Assembly: GCF_900176145.1 (NCBI RefSeq)
Contig: NZ_FWWY01000001.1
Location: 1,411,819-1,475,818 of the forward strand
DNA: 64,000 bases
Direction of reading: 5' to 3'
Source of the DNA: Sulfobacillus thermosulfidooxidans DSM 9293
Lineage (GTDB): Bacteria; Bacillota; Sulfobacillia; Sulfobacillales; Sulfobacillaceae
Position 1 is the stretch's first letter, and every line of letters begins with the position of its first letter. Under the pieces are notes generated by a model that did not search any database, was not told where the DNA came from, and saw only the letters and a list, made by a program, of their open reading frames with translations. Positions 1,845-8,308 of this stretch are shown in pieces. The translations under genes were made by a program, and so were the position numbers.

Positions 1845-2585
1845 GTGGATTTAGGACTTCATGGTCAAGTGGCGATTGTAAGTGGCGGATCACGCGGCGT
1901 CGGTCAAGCCATTGTGCAAGAACTGTTGGATGAAGGGGTTAAGGTTGCAACGGGAAGCCGCCATCCTGAGGATTTTGAGCGCGACCTCGTGGATTCCACA
2001 AACGTGATGATCCGTGACCTGGATGTCACCGATCCCGCCAGCATTGATGCTTTTGTTACCGAAGTCACAGAGCGATTTGGGAAAGTCGATATGCTTGTCA
2101 ACAACGCGGGCAAGGCCTATCCAGGATCCTTTGCCACCTTAAGTGATGACGATTGGCAGCGCGATATCAATGTGAAACTGATGGCACAGGTGCGGATGGC
2201 ACGCCGGGTCTTGCCAGTCATGCCAGATGGTGGACGCATTATCAATATGTCAGCAGTGTTTGGCAAGCAACCCGATCCGAGGTTTTTTGCCTCCAGCGTC
2301 AACCGAGCTTCGTGTTTGTCGTTCACAAAAACCTTAGCCAAAGAATTGGCGCCCCGCCTTATCCGGGTGAATGCGGTCAATATTGGCTTTGCCTATTCCG
2401 GGCAATGGGAGGGGAAAACCCCGGAATTCTTTGCAGAATTATGCGAGGCGTTTGATGTGCCCTTAAGACGGTTTGGCGAGCCTAGGGAAGTGGCCGCCGT
2501 CGTTGCCTTTCTCCTCTCACAACGGGCGTCGTATGTGACCGGGACCATTGTCGATGTCGACGGTGGACTGGCAAAGTATTTATAG
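1845..2585 (+). CDS. SDR-superfamily protein with altered active site
   Basis: A 246-residue Rossmann protein. The cofactor loop is seen as SGGSRGVGQ near residue 14, NNAG near residue 83, and the C-terminal DVDGGLAKYL is typical of FabG-like SDRs. GTG 1845 is preferred, with AAGGAG 9 bases upstream; a GTG 30 bases earlier adds residues unlike an SDR start. The Ser of the catalytic tetrad is present (INMSAVFG), but the YxxxK position reads SSVNR: aligned on the following ASCLSFTKTLAKEL, Tyr is replaced by Ser and Lys by Arg. The protein may therefore be catalytically altered or non-enzymatic. It probably belongs to the IclR-cupin operon. Confidence 0.85.
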   Translation: MDLGLHGQVAIVSGGSRGVGQAIVQELLDEGVKVATGSRHPEDFERDLVDSTNVMIRDLDVTDPASIDAFVTEVTERFGKVDMLVNNAGKAYPGSFATLSDDDWQRDINVKLMAQVRMARRVLPVMPDGGRIINMSAVFGKQPDPRFFASSVNRASCLSFTKTLAKELAPRLIRVNAVNIGFAYSGQWEGKTPEFFAELCEAFDVPLRRFGEPREVAAVVAFLLSQRASYVTGTIVDVDGGLAKYL

Positions 2586-2691
2586 CGTCTGCAAAGAAAG
2601 GGACTTAAGACACCTGAGATTTCATGACGGCTTGACGTGTTCCGGTATGATGGATGAAGAAGTCCAAGTGACGCGTCATAGGGGGACAGTG

Positions 2692-3366
2692 GTGAAACTT
2701 TTGGTGGTCGAAGATGAACACTCGCTTGCGCGTTTAATGCATCTGGAACTAGAGCACGCGGGATTTTCGGTCGATGTTGTGCATAGTGGTCATGATGCCC
2801 TGCGTTATTTTGCGGAACATCATTATGACTGTATTTTGTTGGATGTCATGCTGCCCGATTTGAGTGGTTTTGAGATTTGCCGACGGATCCGACTTCAGGC
2901 ATCCGTTCCCATTCTTATGGTGACAGCGCGGGGACAGACGCCTGATATTGTGGCAGGACTCGAACTCGGTGGCGACGACTATATCGTCAAGCCCGTGAAT
3001 TTCGAAGAATTGACAGCCCGAATTCGCGCCGTGACTCGCCGAAACCAGACCAGGGAGCATGATGCCGGGAAACTGGCAATTCAGAACCTGTGCCTGATTA
3101 TTGATGAATTCCGGGCTGAGGTGGCGGGCAAGCCCTTGTCTCTAAGCGCACTCGAATTTCGGCTACTGGAACATTTTGTCCGGAATCAAAAGTTGGTTCA
3201 GAGTCGAGAGGCCCTACTGGAACATGTTTGGGGTATCGATTTCCGGGGAGAAAGCAACATGGTTGATGTGAGTGTCGGCCGCTTGCGCCGAAAATTACGC
3301 CAAGCTGGCAGTGATGTGGACATTGAAACCATTCGAGGTGTGGGCTATGTCTTGCGAGACGAGTAA
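2692..3366 (+). CDS. OmpR/PhoB-type response regulator
   Basis: A 224-residue two-domain regulator. The receiver domain begins MKLLVVEDEH with the acidic pocket at residues 7-8, phospho-acceptor Asp51 in LLLD-VMLPDLSGFE, and the conserved Lys in YIVKP near residue 100. The C-terminal winged helix shows LSALEFRLLEHFVRN, REALLEHVWG and VDVSVGRLRRKL. The GTG at 2692 gives the canonical receiver start and follows a GGGGGAC site; longer in-frame starts overlap the SDR gene and add unrelated residues. The histidine kinase begins 7 bases after the stop, so the two form a cognate pair. A tandem direct repeat at 4804-4822 is a likely DNA target. Confidence 0.93.
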   Translation: MKLLVVEDEHSLARLMHLELEHAGFSVDVVHSGHDALRYFAEHHYDCILLDVMLPDLSGFEICRRIRLQASVPILMVTARGQTPDIVAGLELGGDDYIVKPVNFEELTARIRAVTRRNQTREHDAGKLAIQNLCLIIDEFRAEVAGKPLSLSALEFRLLEHFVRNQKLVQSREALLEHVWGIDFRGESNMVDVSVGRLRRKLRQAGSDVDIETIRGVGYVLRDE

Positions 3367-3372
3367 AAAGAT

Positions 3373-4755
3373 ATGGGATTAGCTGGCCGTCTAACCGTCT
3401 CCCTTATTGCCGCCCTATTAGTTGTTTTTGTTTTGTTGGGCGGCAGCCTCGTGTTAAATCTCAGCCATCATTTGGTGCTTCAGGCCTTAGATGAAGCACA
3501 AACCACAGCCCGTCAATCCGCCCGCTTAGCGTCAGACAGTGGGGTTAAGGGCCAACATCTTTCCCTTAATGATCCGGGGATGGTTGCCGCTGCCGAAGGC
3601 CGGTCCACGCTCTATTTGCAAGTATCCCAGGGTAAAAACATCGTTCAACGTTCCAGCAATTTGAGCACCGCGACACTTCCCCTTCAGCCCCTCTCGCCCC
3701 GGCTATTGCACTGGGGACAGATACCGCTTTGGGGATCGTCCGCTCCTCTTATCACGCTCCCCCAGGGGCCGGCTGTCCTTGCTTGGGCTCCGATATGGCA
3801 ACAAGGTCAAAAAATTGGGGAAATCGAGGCGGCGGTCTCACTCCAAGGGACATTAAATGCGATTCAAACCGTGGGACAAGGCTTGTTGGGGGTCGGCATC
3901 ACGGCATTAGTTTTGGCTTCTTTGGTGAGTGCGTTGTTGGTCTACCGGTCCTATGCTCGGGTGCGGTGGCTCAAAAACGCGGTGGCTCAAATTCGGTCTG
4001 GCAATGATTTGGCCCAACGTCTTATCGTTGTGGGACCCCATGATGAAGTATATGACCTGGCTAAAGCCTTTAATCATATGGTGAATCAATTAGACGAGAG
4101 TTTTCAGCGCCAGCGACTTGTCGTCGCCCACGCCTCTCACCAATTGCGCACTCCTATTGCGACAGCCATTGGCTATGCCAATATGTTAAGAAATTGGGGA
4201 CAAACGGAACCGGACTTAGTCGCAGAAGGGCTCGAAGTCATTCATGAACAACTCGAACGGCTTCACAGGACGATTGAGGCCGTTCTCAAATTGGCGGAGG
4301 CCGAAGATGCCAAGGACCTGAAGAGGGAGGCGATTGTTCTCGGGCCTTACCTGGCGACGTGGGTTATCTCGCAGACGATCCCTGTGGAGTTGGATGGAGA
4401 GCCTCACGTGACGGTCAATTTTCACCCGGACATGTTTGCCGAACTGTTGAATATCTTTTGCGAAAATGCCCGGCGATATGGCGGATTGAGCCCGCAACTG
4501 CGAATTCAGTGGGAGTTAGATATCAAGATGTCTAGGGTTATATTGACGCTGACAGACAATGGCCCGGGATTTCCTGTCGATCTATTGCCACATCTTTTTC
4601 ACCCCTTTGTGAAGCATACCGAAAGCCCAGGGTCGGGTTTGGGTTTGGCATTGGCTCGGACCATCGTGGAGCGTCATGGCGGTCGCATTTTTGCCACCAA
4701 TAGTCCCTATGGTGGAGCTCAGATTACTATTGTCTTGCCCCAATTGGCGTCATAA
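3373..4755 (+). CDS. Membrane-bound sensor histidine kinase
   Basis: A 460-residue class I sensor kinase. Membrane segments lie at about residues 7-30 and 168-191, flanking an extracytoplasmic sensor region of about 135 residues with no recognisable domain. A HAMP linker follows (about 192-245), then the H-box HASHQLRTP with His256, an N-box FCENARRYGG, G1 DNGPGFP and G2 GSGLGLALA. It autophosphorylates on His256 and passes phosphate to the regulator encoded directly upstream. The ribosome site is weak (AAAAAG), consistent with coupling to the regulator. Position before the haem/flavin gene set suggests the sensor may follow a redox or envelope signal; this is inference. Confidence 0.93.
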   Translation: MGLAGRLTVSLIAALLVVFVLLGGSLVLNLSHHLVLQALDEAQTTARQSARLASDSGVKGQHLSLNDPGMVAAAEGRSTLYLQVSQGKNIVQRSSNLSTATLPLQPLSPRLLHWGQIPLWGSSAPLITLPQGPAVLAWAPIWQQGQKIGEIEAAVSLQGTLNAIQTVGQGLLGVGITALVLASLVSALLVYRSYARVRWLKNAVAQIRSGNDLAQRLIVVGPHDEVYDLAKAFNHMVNQLDESFQRQRLVVAHASHQLRTPIATAIGYANMLRNWGQTEPDLVAEGLEVIHEQLERLHRTIEAVLKLAEAEDAKDLKREAIVLGPYLATWVISQTIPVELDGEPHVTVNFHPDMFAELLNIFCENARRYGGLSPQLRIQWELDIKMSRVILTLTDNGPGFPVDLLPHLFHPFVKHTESPGSGLGLALARTIVERHGGRIFATNSPYGGAQITIVLPQLAS

Positions 4756-4803
4756 GGCGGATGGGAAGTTAATCTTCTGTTTGTTCAGGCACTTGTTCTA
4801 ACT

Positions 4804-4822
4804 TTGTCATGTCATTGTCATG
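4804..4822 (+). promoter_or_regulatory. Tandem TTGTCATG direct repeat, likely response-regulator box
   Basis: TTGTCATG occurs at 4804-4811 and again at 4815-4822, a period of 11 bases. OmpR/PhoB-family regulators bind as head-to-tail dimers to direct repeats spaced one helical turn. The box lies just after the kinase gene and about 90 bases before the small secreted protein gene, where a promoter is expected. Confidence 0.5.
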
Positions 4823-4911
4823 TTCCCTTCACTTCCGTGTTAACCAGGAAAGATAAGCTGGGGATGTGGGATCCGAAAGGTTTCCCGCCATCATCATTAG
4901 GAGGGCAACTC

Positions 4912-5217
4912 ATGGCTATATGGTATGTCAAGCCTATGATAGGGCTTATCGCCACTGCAGGACTGGTTGGGGCTGCAACCGCTATCGCGAGTGCTCACTC
5001 CTTGCCGTCTCAAGTCGTGCCAGTGCATAAGGTGCTGGTGACAGCGAGTACGAATCAGACCAACGGCATCGATCACGGAGTGAATGACCAAAGCGGTGCG
5101 GATGTCCAGTCTGGTCCCGATGTAGAGTCAGGCCTTAATGTGCAGTCGAATGTTCAAAGTGTAGGGGGCGGGCCTGACAATCAGGCGGCAGTCCCTGGGC
5201 AAGAAACGGATCAATAA
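4912..5217 (+). CDS. Small secreted repeat protein of unknown function
   Basis: A 101-residue protein. ATG 4912 follows TAGGAGGG with good spacing. Residues 6-28 form a signal peptide or anchor (GLIATAGLVGAATAIASAHS), with likely cleavage after ASA. The mature part is short, acidic and low in complexity, with imperfect repeats of the type SGxDVQ (SGADVQ, SGPDVE, SGLNVQ, SNVQS) and a Gln/Gly/Pro-rich tail. I do not recognise a family. It stands directly behind the two-component system and its putative binding box, so it may be a regulated cell-surface protein or a partner of the redox proteins that follow. Confidence 0.6.
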   Translation: MAIWYVKPMIGLIATAGLVGAATAIASAHSLPSQVVPVHKVLVTASTNQTNGIDHGVNDQSGADVQSGPDVESGLNVQSNVQSVGGGPDNQAAVPGQETDQ

Positions 5218-5677: not shown

Positions 5678-6364
5678 ATGAAATCAGTAACGAAATTGTG
5701 GGGCCCCATTCTTTGGTTGGAACTGCTAGCGGGGTTTTTGGGATTTTTGGCCTATCGCTGGATTGTGCTGCATCCCACTTTACGTCCCTTATGGACGTGG
5801 TTGCTCGCACGGGCCACAGGGATTGGGGCGTATAGCCTGTTAACTATCGTTGTGATCATGGGTATAGGGATGAGCCATCCGGTATGGAAACGCCACCTTA
5901 ACCGTCGGTTTTTTGTTTGGCACCGGGGACTGGCCTTAAGTGTTCTCGCTTTAATTGCCTTACATGGTTTGTCCTTGGCATTAGATAGGTATGCCCACGT
6001 GGGTTGGACGGGTCTTTTGGTGCCGGGTTTTTCCCATTACCGTCCCTATGGAGTAGCCTTTGGCGTGATTGCAGCGGAAGGGCTTGTCTTAGTTTCCCTC
6101 TCAGCCTATCTCGCTCAAAATTTTGGGCGTCTCAAATGGATGACGGTTCACCGGGGAGCCTTATTGATGTGGGTGTTAGTGCTTATCCATGGGTTATGGA
6201 GCGGTTCGGACACCAGGGCACTCGCATTATTTTATGAAGCATCGGCAGGGCTTGTGGGAATGGCCGTGATATTGCGTTATGGCATGGAACGGGTTACCCG
6301 GGCTAAGACTGTGATCGAGTACCCTGGGGACCGGCAAATCCAGGAGAAAAAGAAGGACATTTAA
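5678..6364 (+). CDS. Ferric-reductase-like transmembrane haem protein
   Basis: A 228-residue membrane protein with about six transmembrane segments. Two His pairs lie in helices: WHRG with ALHG 14 residues later, and VHRG with LIHG 13 residues later. This is the bis-haem ligand pattern of the ferric reductase-like/cytochrome b561-type superfamily that includes MsrQ and NOX. It likely moves electrons across the membrane. ATG 5678 follows GAGGAGAAG. The soluble NADPH/FAD domain of true ferric reductases is absent, so electrons must come from quinol or another protein. Two proteins with a putative flavin attachment motif and an ApbE flavin transferase follow, so a flavoprotein is the probable electron partner. 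Substrate unknown. Confidence 0.75.
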   Translation: MKSVTKLWGPILWLELLAGFLGFLAYRWIVLHPTLRPLWTWLLARATGIGAYSLLTIVVIMGIGMSHPVWKRHLNRRFFVWHRGLALSVLALIALHGLSLALDRYAHVGWTGLLVPGFSHYRPYGVAFGVIAAEGLVLVSLSAYLAQNFGRLKWMTVHRGALLMWVLVLIHGLWSGSDTRALALFYEASAGLVGMAVILRYGMERVTRAKTVIEYPGDRQIQEKKKDI

Positions 6365-6406
6365 AGAAATTTTACGTTTTAAGTTTACGCTTAAGGAGAG
6401 ATCAGT

Positions 6407-6850
6407 ATGAATATCTGGAGCAAAAGAGGATTAACGGGTCTTGGTACGGTCGCTTCACTGCTCGGAATTCACTGGGCAGCAAGTGCGGCGCCGCCACCTC
6501 TTTCTCCTGCCTTACCGTCTGCCAGGGTGTATGCCAATGCCGAAGTCACAACCCGGCAAGAAGACACGGCGTTACAATCAGCGGTGCGCCAGGCATCTCA
6601 AAGTGATGCGGAGATAACGGCCAGCACCGCATCTTTGCAAGCCGAATTAAACCAGGCGCAGAAGACTTTAGCCCAATTGCAAGCCCTTGAAAGCACGGAT
6701 CGAACCCGGTTAAGTGCTGTGAAAGCGGCCATTCAGGCAGCACAGACCGTGTCCCAACCTCCTGTTGTGCATACTGTAACCGGGGCATCGGGGAAGCCCA
6801 GTGATGATAATGGCGGGGGCGATGACAGCAATGGTGGAACCGACGACTAA
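6407..6850 (+). CDS. Secreted coiled-coil protein with TGAS flavinylation-like motif (protein 1)
   Basis: A 147-residue protein starting at ATG 6407 behind AAGGAGAG. Residues 1-27 are a signal peptide (KR near the N-terminus, hydrophobic core, ASA cleavage site). Residues about 55-110 are an Ala/Gln-rich coiled coil. Residues 118-131 read PPVVHTVTGASGKP, with TGAS at 125-128. The last 16 residues are Asp/Gly/Asn-rich. (S/T)GA(S/T) is the core of the ApbE target motif, where FMN is bound through a phosphoester to the final Ser/Thr; the usual Asp five to six residues before is a His here. No FMN-binding fold is visible, so the motif would be a free-standing tag. The next gene overlaps by 20 bases and shares the motif. 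Confidence 0.65.
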   Translation: MNIWSKRGLTGLGTVASLLGIHWAASAAPPPLSPALPSARVYANAEVTTRQEDTALQSAVRQASQSDAEITASTASLQAELNQAQKTLAQLQALESTDRTRLSAVKAAIQAAQTVSQPPVVHTVTGASGKPSDDNGGGDDSNGGTDD

Positions 6851-7331
6851 ACTATCCGGCCCGTATTCGGGTCATAAAACAACATGGAAAACGGTCATGG
6901 CTATGACGGTCATTACCATGACCAGTGTAGCCGTTCCCCTTATTTGGGTGGGACAGAAAGTGTCTGCCCAAATTGCTCTACAAGACCGCCACGTGCGAAA
7001 TATTCGTGCGGCGTGGGAGGTCGATGCCCACCAGACTGAGCAATTGCGCCAGCAATTGACGCAGTTATTGGCGAAAGGTCGCGCTGAGAAGGCTCAACAT
7101 GACGCGACCGCGAAGGCTTTAACCCAGACCACTGATCAAATTATTGCCACCGAAAAAGCTATTAATCACACTGTGGCACAAATGGATCATTTGACAGGCA
7201 CTCCCGTCACCAATTTACTGCCGCTTTCCCCGGCGTTGTCTTCTAGCGCTCTGACTCCCATGACCCTGCCAGCAATGCCCACTACACCACCGGTCATCCA
7301 TACGGTAACCGGAGCTTCCGGCAAACCGTAA
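6831..7331 (+). CDS. Membrane-anchored coiled-coil protein with C-terminal TGAS motif (protein 2)
   Basis: A 166-residue protein. ATG 6831 is preferred; earlier in-frame ATGs from 6801 have no better ribosome site. One membrane segment lies at about residues 20-41, followed by a coiled coil (about 60-120), a Ser/Pro-rich linker, and a terminus PPVIHTVTGASGKP at 153-166 that ends the protein. The 14-residue segment matches protein 1 at 13 positions, although 10 of the 14 codons differ synonymously, so selection acts on the peptide. The start overlaps the previous gene by 20 bases, suggesting translational coupling. If the Ser163 carries FMN, the protein would hold a flavin on a flexible stalk next to the haem protein. 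Confidence 0.65.
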   Translation: MVEPTTKLSGPYSGHKTTWKTVMAMTVITMTSVAVPLIWVGQKVSAQIALQDRHVRNIRAAWEVDAHQTEQLRQQLTQLLAKGRAEKAQHDATAKALTQTTDQIIATEKAINHTVAQMDHLTGTPVTNLLPLSPALSSSALTPMTLPAMPTTPPVIHTVTGASGKP

Positions 7332-7402
7332 ATCCTTAAGACGACCCGGATAATCCAAGCAGAGAGAAGGAGTCTGTTCTGATTGAAAGATGCTGGCGAC
7401 AA

Positions 7403-8308
7403 ATGGCTTCTCCGGTTCAGTGGCTTATTGATGCGGACACCTTCGAGGGCATCGAACGACTGGAAAAGGACTTGCGGGCATTGTTTGAGACAGTTGAACG
7501 CCGACTGTCGCGATTTCAGGAGGACAGTGAAGCCGTTTGGCTCAACCGGAATTTGGGGCAATGGATGAGCGTGTCGGACGTGCTGTATGCGGCTTTAGCA
7601 CTGAGTCATCGTGCATGGCGCCTCACCGGGGGACTGTTTGATCCCCGGATCATTACCGATCTCGAACGCTTAGGATATGTGGGGGTCGAGATTCCCCAGG
7701 GAGCCTATGCAAAAGCCCAGTGGCTTGAACGCAGACCTCGGTCACGCCAAGTCCGGTTAAATGCCCCAGTGGATTTTGGCGGCATTGGCAAAAGTTTAGC
7801 CGTATATTGGGGAGCCCGACTCATTACCCGCTATTTTATGGCAATCCACCAGCCTGTTCCTCCTATGCTCCTCAATGCGGGAGGCGACATGCAAATGCTA
7901 GGAGCCTCTGTTCCAGAACCTATGGGATGGCAGGTAGGGGTTGAGCATCCGGTGGTCCCCAATCAGATAGGGATGGTCTTAACCTTTCCCGTTTCCATGG
8001 CGGTTTGTACTTCATCCATTCGCATTCATCAGTGGTCACACCACGGAAAAAGAGTTCACCATCTCATTAATCCCTTGACCCATGAACCCGGTGGGGAGGG
8101 GATTCTTAGCGTAACTGTTGCGCACCACAGGCCGACCTGGGCAGAAGTTTGGAGCAAGGCATTGTTTTTACAGGGCGCTACAGGCATAGCGGATTTTGCC
8201 CATAAACGCCGTCTGTATGCCTGGTGGTTTACCGATGACGGTAAAGTTGGTGTCACTCACGATGCATGGCGTTACCTAACTTGGCTTCACCCAGCATTCA
8301 TGATCTAA
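7403..8308 (+). CDS. apbE: FAD:protein FMN transferase, ApbE family
   Basis: At least 301 residues. ApbE enzymes transfer FMN from FAD to a Ser/Thr of a target protein with Mg2+. Visible family motifs are TGGLFDP (75-81), DFGGIGKSLA (124-133), LLNAGGDMQMLG (156-167), and a C-terminal PTWAEVWSKALF, where the usual metal-binding Asp of the aDAlaTAlf segment is a Glu. ATG 7403 has no ribosome site, whereas AGAAGGAG at 7365-7372 is spaced 6 bases from an in-frame CTG at 7379, which would add eight residues (LIERCWRQ) where ApbE proteins normally start. No signal peptide or lipobox is seen, so the enzyme is predicted cytoplasmic. The two upstream TGAS proteins are the obvious targets. Confidence 0.85.
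   Translation: MASPVQWLIDADTFEGIERLEKDLRALFETVERRLSRFQEDSEAVWLNRNLGQWMSVSDVLYAALALSHRAWRLTGGLFDPRIITDLERLGYVGVEIPQGAYAKAQWLERRPRSRQVRLNAPVDFGGIGKSLAVYWGARLITRYFMAIHQPVPPMLLNAGGDMQMLGASVPEPMGWQVGVEHPVVPNQIGMVLTFPVSMAVCTSSIRIHQWSHHGKRVHHLINPLTHEPGGEGILSVTVAHHRPTWAEVWSKALFLQGATGIADFAHKRRLYAWWFTDDGKVGVTHDAWRYLTWLHPAFMI

Follow-up and report, generated by a model that had tools for sequence, protein, structure and literature searches.

A candidate flavinylation-based electron-transfer module with a fold-free C-terminal tag in Sulfobacillus thermosulfidooxidans

In the surveys that we consulted, flavinylated proteins have their FMN within a folded domain or next to one. In MsrQ-like flavinylation systems, a PF01794-like membrane haem protein is clustered with the FMN transferase ApbE, and electrons are proposed to pass through the membrane to an extracytosolic protein that bears FMN (PMC8238504). 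The locus described here, with its putatively PF01794-like protein and its proposed electron transfer, resembles these systems, but they typically include a protein with an FMN-binding domain and often an NAD-binding domain, and neither is found in our module. Huang et al. 2024 (PMC11334425) describe FMN_red proteins whose flavinylation motif lies in a C-terminal extension that is unstructured. By analogy, this is the nearest precedent for the proposed substrates, although in FMN_red proteins the extension lies beside a real flavin-binding fold and our tag proteins have none. The nearest functional precedent would be the engineered Flavin-tag (Tong et al. 2021), a seven-residue terminal motif that, as far as the secondary account in PMC12052999 goes, is sufficient for ApbE on any protein body; that tag is man-made, whereas the one described here looks like its natural equivalent, always with serine as the acceptor. 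In the literature searched, which excluded most subscription journals, we came across no account of a flavin tag that is both natural and fold-free. The survey of Meheust et al. (2021) searched for PF02424 and PF04205 and discarded genes lacking a signal peptide (PMC8238504), so clusters of the present type would have been missed.

The window, a stretch of 64,000 nucleotides from S. thermosulfidooxidans DSM 9293, contains a module of four closely spaced genes on one strand. A preliminary description, made from the DNA alone, had placed a ferric-reductase-like haem protein, two coiled-coil proteins and an ApbE next to one another in that order, and all four open reading frames are indeed found there:

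5678..6364, + strand: FRD, a ferric-reductase-domain-like, putatively bis-haem membrane protein, 228 aa (open reading frame, His pattern, AF2 model)
6407..6850, + strand: tagA, 147 aa (open reading frame; signal-peptide-like N terminus, coiled coil, tag, Gly/Asp-rich acidic tail)
6770..6790, + strand: tag HTVTGAS of tagA, residues 122-128; proposed acceptor Ser128, codon 6788-6790
6831..7331, + strand: tagB, 166 aa (TM anchor, long helix, Pro/Thr-rich disordered linker, C-terminal tag)
7299..7319, + strand: tag HTVTGAS of tagB, residues 157-163; proposed acceptor Ser163, codon 7317-7319
7403..8308, + strand: tag-clade ApbE, an FAD:protein FMN transferase, 301 aa (PF02424, alignment, tree; no signal peptide)

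With tagB starting at ATG 6831 (an alternative start is GTG 6801), the tagA and tagB genes overlap by 20 nt. A scan for promoters and terminators gave signal no higher than background. Just upstream (2548-5217), we observe genes for a response regulator and a histidine kinase, then one for a small secreted Gln/Ser/Asn-rich protein. These are kept in the close relative G006 and are apparently missing beside the module in G028, and for the latter reason they are probably not part of it.

The two tag proteins share the identical stretch HTVTGASGKP. The signal-peptide-like N terminus of tagA reads MNIWSKRG...ASA/APPP, and the TM anchor of tagB spans approximately residues 22-40. In its AlphaFold model, tagB forms a single helix (residues 19-122) followed by a low-confidence tail (123-166) that holds the tag; by inspection, the length of the helix differs among species, and the plan of anchor, helix, Pro-rich linker and tag remains constant. 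Neither protein matches the FMN_bind profile (PF04205) at an E-value of 1, and no family in a search of protein-family profiles scored above its cut-off for either. The claim that both coiled-coil proteins carry TGAS without an FMN-binding fold is therefore borne out, and the predictions show no folded cradle for a flavin in the tag proteins. The further statement that TGAS ends one of them needs qualification: in the window, three residues (GKP) separate the proposed acceptor of tagB from the stop codon, but the statement is literally true of the orthologues in G467, G468 and G469, where tagB stops exactly at this serine. We also considered the motif as a cell-wall-sorting signal and rejected this, as inspection showed neither a hydrophobic nor a charged tail after it.

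Across the class, we collected 26 copies of the tag from 15 genomes. The core of ApbE targets, [ST]GA[ST], is present in all of them, with GAS invariant and serine always the acceptor; the residue before GAS is Thr in 25/26 and Thr or Ser in every copy. The first position is far less uniform (His 13, Gln 9, Asp 3, Val 1). As the preliminary description had pointed out, the Asp that opens the motif D-x-x-[ST]-G-A-[ST] is missing in both window proteins, which have His instead. It occurs in only 3/26 tags, all of them in tagA, where DTFTGAS (G467), DTVTGAS (G468) and DTTTGAS (G469) are textbook ApbE targets of the form D-x-x-T-G-A-S. From the missing Asp it had been argued that either the enzyme or the target rule would be variant. 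Because orthologues have Gln, Asp or Val at this position, and because an Asp-to-Ala exchange there had only minor effects in the substrate tested (Bertsova 2019, to the extent relayed in PMC12052999), the evidence supports the view that His does not by itself break the rule; the enzyme is a different matter, to which we return below.

Could the motif have arisen by chance in two tails rich in Pro and Thr, or stem from one recent duplication? It is short, and tagA may be related to tagB by a distant duplication (hhalign, 96%). Yet the motif stays invariant where overall identity is only 30-40%, and invariant residues are over-represented in its alignment columns (p 3e-5 and 1.5e-4). The codons of TGASG all vary, with 3-4 codons per invariant residue and synonymous changes only, and this free variation implies conservation of the peptide rather than of the DNA.

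The distribution of the tag points the same way. Eight of the 42 genomes surveyed in the order carry a close relative of the window ApbE. A genome-wide pattern search of the order found real tags in seven genomes only, all with a tag-clade ApbE, so that tags occur in 7/8 genomes with this ApbE vs 0/34 without (Fisher p 3e-7); in the eighth ApbE-bearing genome, G017, the sequence is cut off at ApbE. Absence of such co-occurrence elsewhere had been named beforehand as a possible refutation, and the association was found. The full set of FRD, tagA, tagB and ApbE is present, in two gene orders, in G000, G006, G028, G008, G408, G485, G467, G468, G469 and G248. In G008, which belongs to a different family, the locus has 71% GC and ApbE lies in the opposite orientation. 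G035 has FRD, tagA and tagB on one contig and the tag-clade ApbE on another; this ApbE (L046 5648-6507, G035:C78) is split over two overlapping frames, a decayed gene or an assembly error. A search of 154 genomes of the class for ApbE added 13 tag-clade members in other families. G498 has FRD, one tag and ApbE, and no tags were found near the tag-clade ApbEs of G477, G479, G480, G483 and G484, some of which are on short contigs. A tagB profile run over the 154 genomes recovered only H-type orthologues and four weak coiled-coil matches and therefore under-reports Q/D-type tags; beyond the class, only the H-type tag was searched for. A third HxxTGASG match in G028 (L054) and seven matches in the phylum outside the order were discarded as short ORFs or out of frame, and a reversed control pattern gave a similar background. 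As for ApbE itself, the scan of genome contigs returned only a 30% identical protein in a Patescibacteria MAG, plasmid ApbEs were at most 30% identical among the matches listed, and viral contigs gave no match.

The same tag also occurs on an unrelated protein beside the same ApbE clade. In G024 and G025, a tag-clade ApbE adjoins a 96-aa secreted protein (tagC) ending in KVHAKTGASG and two large membrane proteins, and in G482 a relative of tagC carries an SSGASG tag. Given this third protein, the co-occurrence, the class-wide neighbourhoods and the consensus of the 26 tags, we regard coincidence as refuted, with a practically negligible chance of being right. The loci of the second module are L045 160-4339 (- strand), L047 and L164 9580-10200 (- strand). 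Its small secreted protein has two Cys, ends in VHAKTGASG or VHASSGASG and is unrelated to tagA and tagB. The two membrane proteins, of about 450 aa, have several His in hydrophobic segments and no Pfam match; PDB matches to LasR for this module look spurious and were set aside.

The genome that contains the window (G000; 3.86 Mb, 99.9% complete) encodes two ApbEs and, in its entirety, has no FMN_bind match above the cut-off. Its lone weak candidate (19.9 bits, below the cut-off) neighbors the other ApbE and not the window module, which leaves the window ApbE without an ordinary partner. At this second locus (L003 8523-10866; G000:C1 about 1040522-1042865), the candidate is a secreted, divergent FMN_bind protein with an N-terminal hydrophobic anchor and the stretch YVVTGATAST, also without Asp, and by inspection an NqrB/RnfD-like membrane protein adjoins, so the locus looks like an NQR/RNF-like system. 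Like the tag module, it places a signal-less ApbE beside its own substrate, but it differs in having an FMN_bind domain, divergent and with VTGATAST, an ApbE with the canonical metal-site Asp and Thr and the NqrB/RnfD-like partner.

The ApbEs of the class form three clades that match their neighborhoods: tag-linked, FMN_bind-linked and long-FRD-linked (100/99, 100/99 and 98/96, respectively). The window enzyme matches PF02424 with an E-value of 1.3e-36 (126.9 bits vs a cut-off of 25.6) and aligns to 13 solved ApbE sequences. Its TSS (203-205) and HHL (219-221; His219/220) align with the TSG and H-H/I of the solved enzymes, and both are kept in 19/19 readable tag-clade members. The metal-site Asp and Thr (ADxxxT) are absent from the window ApbE, which has Glu248 and Lys252, and Glu and Lys are likewise found in 19/19 readable members of the clade. 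TSG, Asp and Thr are retained in 13/13 FMN_bind-linked ApbEs, and the long-FRD-linked clade is mixed at the Asp and Thr positions. The earlier suspicion of a variant enzyme thus survives, at a site that had gone unnoticed (TSS, and a Glu/Lys pair where Asp and Thr are canonical). By alignment equivalence, we take the Glu and Lys sites to correspond to Asp284/Thr288 of T. pallidum ApbE and Asp301/Thr305 of Listeria FmnB. The former residues are described in PMC5655446 and the latter in PMC8906456, where alanine at the metal-binding residues of FmnB greatly reduced or abolished activity. With Glu and Lys in these places, the activity of tag-clade ApbEs is therefore not assured. Judged from alignments alone, an altered catalytic site paired with targets that always offer serine is suggestive of enzyme-target co-adaptation and is not proof of activity. 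At L109-L116 and at L176 (Alicyclobacillus fastidiosus plasmid NZ_CP104068), ApbE is paired directly with an FRD protein and no [ST]GA[ST] protein is evident nearby. The long FRD of related genomes has an extracytoplasmic C-terminal part with a conserved NNGHGxGAR stretch.

The differing metal-site residues leave room for the tag to be an unflavinylated peptide that ApbE or FRD recognizes or docks to, with ApbE serving another target, such as FRD, or acting as an FAD pyrophosphatase, as some ApbEs do (PMC4767422). The pairs of ApbE and long FRD without a nearby [ST]GA[ST] protein, in related genomes and on the Alicyclobacillus plasmid, indicate that ApbE can be linked to FRD tag-free. A docking peptide, however, would not account well for a tag that matches the acceptor consensus exactly, in some orthologues as textbook DxxTGAS, and that sits at accessible termini of unrelated proteins paired with one ApbE clade only, and we consider this explanation unlikely.

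The proposed electron donor to the tags is FRD. Two H-13-H pairs, His82/His96 and His158/His171, are invariant in 12 and in 10 homologues, and, at the level of sequence, this pattern is characteristic of a stacked pair of b haems. The AF2 model (pLDDT 83.8) has SpNOX, STEAP and cyt b561 among its closest solved folds (VIA-align Z 11-14), and Foldseek alone gives weak matches (best E 0.03). Since helical bundles can reach such Z values by chance, these scores carry modest weight, and the His pattern is the stronger evidence for the identity of FRD. PF01794 does not match the window protein; two orthologues score 27.4 and 19.5 bits (3.7e-6 and 1.1e-3) vs a cut-off of 28. There is no NAD-binding domain in FRD. 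Residues 66-68 (window 5873-5881) are Ser-His-Pro in all tag-module FRDs and not in the long-FRD paralogues; a docking or haem-edge role is possible.

We consider it probable that the module is a self-contained flavinylation-based system in which electrons pass from the FRD haems to a stalk-tethered FMN. ApbE would move FMN from FAD to tagA and tagB, onto the serine in their C-terminal [ST]GAS tags; this is an inference from the motif and the co-occurrence. Both proteins would be held at the membrane by their N termini with the tags facing outward, and the helical stalk and disordered Pro-rich tether would bear the FMN without a folded flavin domain. Electrons, probably supplied by menaquinol or by a reductant in the cytosol, would cross the membrane through the two putative b haems, reach the tethered FMN and go on to an acceptor that lies in the wall or beyond it. 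From the absence of a signal peptide in ApbE we infer that FMN loading probably takes place in the cytoplasm, with export of the unfolded tag to follow. Such loading would fit the signal-less enzyme, a reaction that in V. cholerae ApbE is favored by alkaline conditions (pKa 8.4, PMC5655446) and an acidic exterior, and an unfolded tag would be suited to Sec export.

The missing signal peptide, set against tags that look exported, counts against this scheme, as does the orientation of tagB, which rests on a modest charge difference. Both points might instead favor flavinylated tags on the cytoplasmic face, through which FRD would receive electrons from NAD(P)H or flavin in the cytosol. The charge of the N-flank of the tagB anchor is equal to or above that of the C-flank, a small difference in the direction of outward tags, and tagA and tagC have signal-peptide-like N termini with strongly positive n-regions. 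No signal peptide is visible in any of the ApbE sequences inspected, including the FMN_bind-linked one of the same genome, whose partner nevertheless has an N-terminal hydrophobic anchor; a missing signal therefore does not put the substrate inside. A cytoplasmic location thus seems to us quite improbable. For the proposed electron-transfer module as a whole speak its conservation, the reuse of the tag on an unrelated protein beside the same ApbE clade and the invariant haem ligands of FRD.

The observation itself is confirmed. Flavinylation of the tag proteins is very likely, in the absence of direct data, and electron flow from the FRD haems to the tethered FMN is the best mechanism that we can infer. 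The core of the preliminary description, a minimal ApbE target without a fold, on a flexible stalk beside a haem protein and with flavin attachment inferred, finds comparative support in the conserved module and tag, the single co-occurring ApbE clade, the DxxTGAS orthologues and the disordered tail. A wider reading, which we offer only tentatively and with some doubt, is of a portable C-terminal flavin tag on at least two unrelated bodies with two membrane partners, which a dedicated ApbE whose metal site is altered would load in the cytoplasm and which, once exported, would shuttle electrons out of the membrane, possibly to Fe(III).

Which enzymes reduce Fe(III) in Sulfobacillus and other acidophiles is unknown (PMC4378227, PMC8790237). 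With its proposed export of electrons across the membrane, the module is a candidate for part of this process; several Sulfobacillus genomes lack it, so it is not a general route. If the proposal is true, current surveys that rely on PF04205 and require a signal peptide overlook whole clusters, ApbE genes seemingly without a substrate would be accounted for, and tag-clade ApbEs would be a natural source of Ser-specific flavin-tagging enzymes. The conclusion that the module widens flavinylation-based extracytosolic electron transfer by a natural, fold-free tag is likely right in its essentials, and it would mean that a tethered, solvent-exposed covalent flavin is on its own a usable electron carrier.
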